A stretch of DNA of 37,182 bases, from contig NZ_FXLV01000007.1 in assembly GCF_900180345.1 (NCBI RefSeq), forward strand, positions 1 to 37,182, written 5' to 3'. The stretch comes from Bathymodiolus heckerae thiotrophic gill symbiont. GTDB taxonomy: Bacteria; Pseudomonadota; Gammaproteobacteria; PS1; Pseudothioglobaceae. The notes under the pieces were generated by a model that was not told the DNA's origin, did no database searches, and saw only the letters and a program-made list of their open reading frames with translations. Positions 1 through 9,090 of this stretch are shown here, piece after piece. Made by a program: the position numbers and the translations under genes. Every line of letters starts with the position of its first letter. Within the stretch, counting starts at the first letter, position 1.

Positions 1-110
1 TCAATTTTTGCCAGATTGGTGATTTTCTTAAACCTTGTCCTAGCAGGACTAAGGCTGGGTTTAAAAAAATTGCCAAGCGGGTGAAAAGTGGATTTTTGAT
101 GATTATTCAT
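1..110 (-). CDS. Putative transposase N-terminus (partial)
   Basis: A minus-strand frame opens with ATG at 110-108, 17 bases inside the IS terminus. It stays open to the window edge, giving 36 residues that begin MNNHQKSTFHPLGNFF. The position just inside the terminal repeat is where a transposase start is expected. The MITE at 8249-8348 preserves the first seven codons (MNNHQKS) before a stop, which fits an internally deleted derivative of this IS. I do not recognise the family from so few residues. A competing plus-strand frame is also open here, so coding is inferred rather than shown. Confidence 0.4.
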   Translation of the reverse strand, partial: MNNHQKSTFHPLGNFFKPSLSPARTRFKKITNLAKI

Positions 111-127
111 ATTTATGCAAAGGTCTC
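1..127 (-). mobile_element. End of an IS element, continuing off the left edge
   Basis: The right boundary is the terminal sequence GCAAAGGTCTC, ending at 127. Read on the minus strand it begins GAGACCTTTGCATAAATATG, identical over these 20 bases to both ends of the 100-bp element at 8249-8348. The similarity to the left end of that element continues for about 40 bases. The remainder of the IS lies outside the window, so its family and target duplication cannot be determined. Confidence 0.6.
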
Positions 128-6910: not shown

Positions 6911-7059
6911 AAACCCTTTGCACCATATTTTTACAAGTTTTCCACAAGGGTGTGAAAAAGAGCAACAAGGTCATGAGGTGTTTTATTGTCGTGTAGGGGC
7001 GTGGTGATAATGATTAGTGGTTATAATATGATTTTGTTTTTACATAAAAGAGAACAGCA

Positions 7060-8250
7060 ATGAAAATCAATAAACTATTAGGAGCGGTATTTGTGGCAAG
7101 TTTGAGTTTGACGACATTGGTCGATGCAAAATCTGTGAGTATTGGCAGTTTGCAAGCGCTTACAGGGCCGCTTGAATCTTTGATTGTACATATGTCTGCT
7201 TCTGCAGATGTTGCTGCTAGAGAGGCCTCGGATTCTGGTAAATTTTTAGGCGGCACTTTGATTAACATTGCGCGTGCTGATTCTCGTTGTATTGAGGCTG
7301 ATGTTGCCGTTGCAGAGGCAGAGCGGCTGATTAATAGCAAAAAAGTCATTGCCATCATGGGACCAAATTGTTCAGGCGCTACTACTGCTGTGGTTAATAA
7401 TGTTACTGTTCCTAATGGGGTAGTTACTATTTCCCCTTCTGCAACCTCGCCAGCTTTGTCCACTATTGAAGACCGAGGTTTTTTCTTTAGAACGGTGTCA
7501 TCTGATGCGAGACAGGGGCAGGTGATTGCCAATATTGCCATTCAGAAAGGGGTAAAAACGGTGGCATTGACTTACACCAATAACGATTACGGCAAAGGGC
7601 TGTCGAATACTTTTGTTGCGGCTTATGAAAAATTGGGCGGCACAATCAGCATTAGTGCGGCACACGAAGATGGTAAAGCAGATTATTCTGCTGAAGTGGC
7701 CGCTCTCTCGGCTTCAGGTGCATCGGTACTGGCTGTGTTTGGTTATGTGGATCAAGGCGGCAAAGGGATTGTTCAGGCTTCGTTAGACACAGGTGCATTT
7801 GATAGTTTTATTTTCGCTGATGGAATGTTTAGTGACAGCCTTACTAAATTGGGTGCAGAATTAAATGGCTCATGGGGCACTATTCCCAGCAATGGTGGTA
7901 TTGCTGATGAAAAATGGCAGAAAATTGCCAAAGCCAATAACATCAAAATAGGCGGACCTTATTTGGGTGAATCTTATGATGCGATGGCACTGATTGTGCT
8001 CTCGGCTCAGGCTGCTAATTCTACTGATAGAATAGCATTAAAAGCGCAAGTAATGAAGGTTGCCAATGCACCGGGTGAAAAAATTTATGCGGGCGAATTA
8101 GCCAAAGGCTTGTCTTTGTTGGCTCAAGGCAAGCAAATTGATTATGTCGGCGCCAGTAATATTGAGTTTAATGTGGTGGGTGAAGTTGAGGGTGCTTATA
8201 AAGAAAAATTAATTGTTAATGGGCAGTTTAAAACGATTAACATACATTGA
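7060..8250 (+). CDS. Periplasmic binding protein of the HAAT importer
   Basis: A 396-residue type I periplasmic binding protein. A signal peptide covers about residues 1-23 (ending VDA). The two-lobed ligand domain has the family blocks SVSIGSLQALTGPL, GPNCSGATTAVVN, SPSATSPALS and LTYTNNDYGKGL. It delivers the substrate to the LivH/LivM-like pore encoded just upstream. Binding proteins of this family take branched-chain amino acids, amides, urea or other small polar solutes, and the ligand is not deducible here. The ATG follows AAAAGAGAACAGCA. The stop codon TGA is formed jointly by the gene and an inserted 100-bp MITE; before insertion the stop would have been TAA and the protein unchanged. 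Confidence 0.92.
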   Translation: MKINKLLGAVFVASLSLTTLVDAKSVSIGSLQALTGPLESLIVHMSASADVAAREASDSGKFLGGTLINIARADSRCIEADVAVAEAERLINSKKVIAIMGPNCSGATTAVVNNVTVPNGVVTISPSATSPALSTIEDRGFFFRTVSSDARQGQVIANIAIQKGVKTVALTYTNNDYGKGLSNTFVAAYEKLGGTISISAAHEDGKADYSAEVAALSASGASVLAVFGYVDQGGKGIVQASLDTGAFDSFIFADGMFSDSLTKLGAELNGSWGTIPSNGGIADEKWQKIAKANNIKIGGPYLGESYDAMALIVLSAQAANSTDRIALKAQVMKVANAPGEKIYAGELAKGLSLLAQGKQIDYVGASNIEFNVVGEVEGAYKEKLIVNGQFKTINIH

Positions 8251-8348
8251 GACCTTTGCATAAATATGAATAATCATCAAAAATCCATTTTTTACCAAGT
8301 TGACAAAAATTGAATTCTGTTAATCATCCATATTTATGCAAAGGTCTC
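8249..8348. mobile_element. 100-bp MITE with 5-bp target duplication
   Basis: The element begins GAGACCTTTGCATAAATATG and ends with the exact inverse. The terminal inverted repeats are identical for 20 bases and continue, with 2 mismatches, to about 26. It is flanked by perfect 5-bp direct repeats ACATT (8244-8248 and 8349-8353). Its left part retains the start MNNHQKS of the putative transposase frame at 1-110 before hitting a stop. It is therefore a non-autonomous deletion derivative of that IS type. It contains no complete gene. Confidence 0.85.
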
Positions 8349-8382
8349 ACATTAAATTATTTAATTTTAAAAAGAGGTTATT

Positions 8383-9090
8383 ATGAGTCTTATTTTTCGT
8401 CCTTTATTTGAAAAAGAAAGTTCAACTTATACTTATCTGTTGGCAGATTCAGACACCAAAGAGGCAGTAATTATTGATGCAGTTGATGAGACTCAGCAGC
8501 GAGATATTGGCTTGATTGAGGAGCTGGGTTTAGATTTAAAATACATCATCGAAACCCATGTACACGCCGACCATATCACCAGTTCTTGCCCTTTAAAGCA
8601 GAAGTTTAAGAATGCCAAGATTGTGCTTGGTGCAGCTAACTCAATGGCTTGTGCGGATATTTTAATCAAAGATGGTGAGCGCTTACAATTTGGGACATAT
8701 AGCATAAACGCAATCGAAACTCCGGGGCATACCAGTGGTTGTATGTCGTTTGTGTGCGAAGACAGGATTTTTACTGGAGATGCTTTGTTGATTAGGAGCT
8801 GCGGTCGGTGTGATTTTCAGGGTGGCTCGGCAGAAAAATTATTTAATTCTATTCAAAAAATATTCACCCTAGCCGATAAGGTTTTGGTTTATCCCGCTCA
8901 TGATTATGGCGGCAGAACGGTAAGTACTATTTGGGAAGAAAAACAATTCAATGAAATGATTGGCGGTGGTGTTGATAAAGACGAGTTTGTTGGGCGTGTC
9001 AATGCGATGGTGTTATCGCTACCTAAAAAAATCCATGTCGCTGTGCCAGCAAACCAAGTATGTGGCTCTAACATCTTATCTGATGGTTAA
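8383..9090 (+). CDS. Persulfide dioxygenase, ETHE1-like
   Basis: A metallo-beta-lactamase-fold non-haem iron enzyme that oxidises glutathione persulfide (GSSH) to sulfite and GSH in the cytoplasm. The 235-residue protein has the metal motif HVHADH (residues 59-64) followed by IT. It then has TPGHTSG, the ETHE1-specific GDALLIRSCGRCDFQGG block and PAHDYGG. These distinguish it from glyoxalase II. In a sulfur-oxidising cell it would connect zero-valent sulfur to sulfite oxidation. Start ATG follows AAAGAGGTTATT. The MITE lies just upstream and may have altered its promoter. The next gene overlaps its last 8 bases. Confidence 0.9.
   Translation: MSLIFRPLFEKESSTYTYLLADSDTKEAVIIDAVDETQQRDIGLIEELGLDLKYIIETHVHADHITSSCPLKQKFKNAKIVLGAANSMACADILIKDGERLQFGTYSINAIETPGHTSGCMSFVCEDRIFTGDALLIRSCGRCDFQGGSAEKLFNSIQKIFTLADKVLVYPAHDYGGRTVSTIWEEKQFNEMIGGGVDKDEFVGRVNAMVLSLPKKIHVAVPANQVCGSNILSDG

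Follow-up and report, generated by a model that had tools for sequence, protein, structure and literature searches.

A MITE of likely IS5-family origin lies within the stop codon of a binding-protein gene and rebuilds the codon with its terminal GA

Small mobile repeats that bring translation stops with them have been described in several bacteria. MITEAba12 of Acinetobacter provides a gene with a stop codon at its 3' end (PMC6382973), and both RUP of pneumococcus and the long form of the Correia element (Correia/NEMIS) of Neisseria carry stops in every frame (PMC2229807). Our literature search found no paper on a MITE rebuilding a stop codon, on MITEs in SUP05-clade symbionts or on the family described here.

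We analysed a stretch of 37,182 nucleotides, called the window below, from the genome of the thiotrophic gill symbiont of Bathymodiolus heckerae (G000; 1.44 Mb in 119 contigs). The features of the locus of interest are the following.

7060 to 8250, + strand: periplasmic binding protein of a branched-chain-amino-acid-type ABC importer, 396 aa (Pfam PF13458, 3.9e-30)
8244 to 8248, no strand: target site duplication ACATT, left copy, inside the coding sequence
8248 to 8250, + strand: stop codon TGA, with T from the gene and GA from the element; presumed original codon TAA
8249 to 8348, + strand: 100-bp MITE, internal-deletion form of a 161/162-bp family, from alignment with the 161/162-bp copies
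8249 to 8268, + strand: left terminal inverted repeat (TIR) GAGACCTTTGCATAAATATG
8329 to 8348, - strand: right TIR, perfect complement of the left TIR
8349 to 8353, no strand: target site duplication ACATT, right copy
8383 to 9090, + strand: metallo-beta-lactamase-fold protein, 235 aa (Pfam PF00753)

The initial annotation had placed here a 100-bp MITE between ACATT duplications, inserted in a stop codon directly behind its T, the first two bases of the element turning the codon into TGA. Every base of this reading was confirmed. The element reads GAGACCTTTGCATAAATATG...CATATTTATGCAAAGGTCTC, its 20-bp TIRs are perfect, and AAATTATT comes after the right ACATT. T8248 belongs to the gene and the element starts at 8249, so that the codon following CAT is composed of T8248, G8249 and A8250. 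In-silico removal of the element together with one ACATT yields ATA CAT TAA and a protein of 396 aa, the same length as with the element; the binding protein is unaltered, as had been proposed, and we infer that the ancestral stop was TAA. Since homologues from other genera end in H or very near H, the C-terminal end of the protein looks original. No ORF within the element reaches 60 aa: short, non-coding, bounded by TIRs and a duplication of fixed length, and represented by many near-identical copies, it is a MITE.

The initial annotation had called for a count of copies over the genome. A search with the 20-bp TIR allowing up to 3 mismatches returned 289 sites in G000 and none with the reversed control, far more than chance would give, and 96 complete copies were characterised, among which 77 measure 161 bp, 10 measure 162 bp and 4 measure 100 bp. 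A perfect 5-bp duplication borders 71 of the 96. These duplications are AT-rich, with TAATA/TATTA as the commonest targets, and 68 of the 71 are preceded by C or T. The 100-bp form differs from the 161/162-bp copies by a central deletion of about 61 bp between the imperfect repeats ACCAACTTGGTAA and ACCAATTTGACAA; because this junction is common to all four 100-bp copies (that of the window and three more), they look like one subfamily. The family is present in at least 9 of the 12 species of the genus (E below 1e-20), and the viral contigs searched with its left 40 bp gave no match. The window holds two further repeats of interest, one at each end.

1 to 127, - strand: second copy of this MITE family, truncated at the contig end
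36886 to 37182, - strand: end of an IS5-family insertion sequence (IS), with TIR GAGACCTTTGCATAATTCAT and C-terminal codons of the transposase, cut by the contig end

Contigs thus break inside MITE or IS copies, and copy numbers are therefore lower bounds. The breaks lie about 127 bp into the repeat (window 1-127; many contig ends, for example those of C33, C34 and C50), as expected from an assembly with 127-base overlaps.

A complete copy of the IS was found in a relative (G007). It is 1243 bp long, with TIRs GAGACCTTTGC(A/G)TAA and the duplication AATAA, and it encodes a transposase of 336 aa that passes the NCBIfam model IS5_4 (NF033581; 234.9 vs 140 bits) and also matches Pfam DUF772 and DDE_Tnp_1. 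The IS duplications found are all of 5 bp (AATAA; ATGTA for a copy in G004; AAAAG), while some other IS copies have none. The MITE and the IS share GAGACCTTTGCATAA, the first 15-17 bp of the TIR being common, 17 bp at the left end of the IS. The ends of the same IS are present in G000, where IS copies break at contig ends and no complete copy with an intact transposase was seen. By sequence, the MITE appears as an IS5-family derivative, sharing its TIR with an IS that carries an IS5 transposase and producing a duplication of equal length, and this IS is the likely source of the family. Since both the start of the TIR and the duplication length match the IS, the MITE would have been moved in trans by it. 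Mobilisation of MITEAba12 was argued from the same evidence, matching ends and duplication length (PMC6382973).

The best explanation of the locus, which we hold with great confidence, combines these elements. An IS5-family transposase that recognises GAGACCTTTGCATAA ends and cuts AT-rich Y-NNNNN-R targets with a 5-bp stagger would have mobilised a non-autonomous MITE in trans, and one copy would have entered the TAA stop of the binding-protein gene between its T and AA. Both element ends start with GA when read inward, so that T plus GA gives TGA, and TA plus G gives TAG, in either orientation. The protein being unaltered, the insertion would have been tolerated, and it may have been neutral, or without cost as the initial annotation put it.

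Rebuilding of stops because the TIR begins with GA is also seen elsewhere. Of the G000 insertions tested against the closest relative carrying the binding-protein gene (G003), about ten gave one continuous G003 match across the junction, with the element absent; empty sites with a single target copy were obtained, for example at loci L273 and L281. At L273 (contig C3 of G000), a gene for a DedA-like membrane protein ends in WYVK followed by a TGA made by the MITE, while its G003 counterpart, which has only one ATTTA and lacks the element, ends in WYVK followed by TAA. The stop-rebuilding mechanism is confirmed at L273, not at the window locus. The same insertion (positions 920-1080 of L273) also cuts a likely downstream lipoprotein gene off from its overlapping ATG, and for this reason may not be neutral. 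The annotation had also asked whether stop codons hold further copies; a few do, and their pattern does not indicate targeting. In fmt (L274), TAA became TAG in G000; the support is weaker, as G003 lacks the element and its gene stops one codon further on. In rsgA (L317), TAG was replaced by TAG in G000, the G003 end being too diverged for the exact site. In another species (G006), TAA became TAG in proB. The names DedA-like, fmt, rsgA and proB were read from the sequences, without a profile test.

To confirm the insertion at the window locus, the initial annotation had pointed to an empty site reading CATTAAATTATT with a single ACATT. None was found in searches of 83 family genomes and of the genome-contig collection, and the interpretation of the annotation as a whole is partly supported. 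Among the genomes searched, G003 is the only close relative with the binding-protein gene (88-89% DNA identity around the locus, 93% protein identity), and its site is occupied. A 278-bp MITE is inserted at the same base, between two copies of ACATT, and its removal gives CATTAA; the G003 locus (L031/L150) is split between two contigs, whose 121-bp overlap falls within the element. Relatives one step further away (60-68% protein identity) end in CAT TAG or CAT CAG TAA and are too distant to judge, and two further genomes (G001, G009) have other sequence 5' of the downstream gene, with no copy of the binding-protein gene there. The 278-bp copy contains three inserted small G+C-rich repeats (CCTAGAGGATTGCTGGGTGTCGCTAACCC-like). 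We counted 18 such repeats in the 30 G003 loci examined, with overlapping loci entering the count twice; they have the look of another, very small mobile repeat that nests in MITEs.

The window copy is 98% identical to the copy at locus L002 of G000 and 95% identical to copies in G004, while the G003 copy is 95-96% identical to the other subfamily and 86% identical to the window copy. Because the G003 copy belongs to a different subfamily, the history of the site is not that of one simple insertion. One reading, to which we give an even chance, is that the insertion predates the split of G000 and G003 and that gene conversion from another 100-bp copy later overwrote the G000 copy. It is favoured by the agreement of the two species in insertion base, ACATT duplication and gene order, and by the sharing of this site although about ten other G000 sites are clearly free of the element in G003; the difference of subfamily (86% identity) argues against it. 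That difference speaks instead for two independent MITE insertions at the same base in the two species, a reading that is quite possible, if a little short of an even chance. It is also consistent with what is seen at another site, where MITEs of G000 (L002, positions 1501-1600) and G003 (L259) lie in the same TAATAATA adjoining a stop codon, 3 bp apart, which is the pattern of separate hits on a hot spot; the G003 copy there is a remnant of about 30 bp and its TAATA duplication is shifted by 3 bp. Against independent insertions, ACATT is not a frequent target in our sample, unlike TAATA/TATTA, and two random hits are not likely to coincide exactly.

The element also folds strongly, because its ends are inverted repeats. 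The 100 bases fold 7.4 standard deviations better than shuffles (z -7.4), and the 20-bp stem (-31 kcal/mol) lies in the 132 bp that now separate the binding-protein gene from the gene at 8383, a distance of about 30 bp once the element is removed. The product of the latter gene gave NCBIfam matches to GloB and to the sulfur dioxygenase Blh, all below cut-offs, and the putative persulfide dioxygenase identity assigned to it by the annotation is plausible. The hairpin could have been retained for a role in regulating this downstream gene, through transcription termination or mRNA processing, and a relative (G015) does have a terminator-like hairpin with a T run 3' of its binding-protein gene. 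We regard such a role as improbable: the fold is explained by the inverted repeats, and no intrinsic terminator was found, promoter-like matches equalled those of shuffles and no Rfam family matched, none of these searches rising above chance. Directly 3' of the permease stop (window 6911-6960), a sequence AAACCCTTTGCACC...CAAGGGT (GACCTTTGTGCAA in G003) looks like either a degraded TIR or the hairpin of a terminator.

That the GA start of the TIR is itself protective, ends that complete TGA or TAG being better tolerated at stop codons, seems to us decidedly improbable. Were it so, hundreds of copies could collect at the gene ends of a small genome, and the same stop codon could be hit repeatedly in separate species. 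Active preference of the element for stop codons is very improbable: the 4 rebuilt stops in G000, against 0.83 expected among 46 tolerated insertions (P ~0.01), form an excess noticed post hoc, copies sampled from four other species gave 1 against about 0.75 expected, and AT-rich targets with purifying selection suffice. Expected counts, about 2% of tolerated sites, came from a target-preference model over sites that do not break a gene, with simple gene calls (ORFs of at least 100 codons); at other sites, many insertions shorten reading frames through stops inside the TIR. Since the G000 excess was not reproduced in the other species, we conclude that tolerance, not targeting, accounts for the rebuilt stops.

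The insertion of a probably IS5-mobilised MITE whose GA ends rebuild a stop offers, with the empty site at the second locus, a clear example in which it depends on the end bases of the mobile element whether or not an insertion at the end of a gene does harm. The analysis also describes a genus-wide MITE family, probably IS5-derived, in relatives of Candidatus Thioglobus, and many breaks in the assembly fall at its copies.

Compared with known systems, the family resembles MITEAba12 in its size of about 100-160 bp, its AT-rich, non-coding sequence, and TIRs and a duplication length that match a resident IS. It differs in family and sequence, and its duplications are of 5 bp vs 9 bp in MITEAba12. 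The stop supplied by MITEAba12 truncates a protein by 398 aa, whereas here the stop is rebuilt at the original codon (PMC6382973). Correia/NEMIS and RUP share with it a high copy number, an RNA hairpin and a mostly intergenic location, and long and short forms exist in both cases (155/107 bp in Correia, 161/100 bp here); in contrast, their TIRs end in TA and no sequence relation is known (PMC2229807). With the IS5-family ISs (NF033581), represented by the IS of the genus, the MITE has in common the first 15-17 bp of the TIR and the 5-bp duplication, but it lacks a transposase gene. The element in the window is ordinary MITE biology, to which the rule of the GA ends adds a tidy twist.
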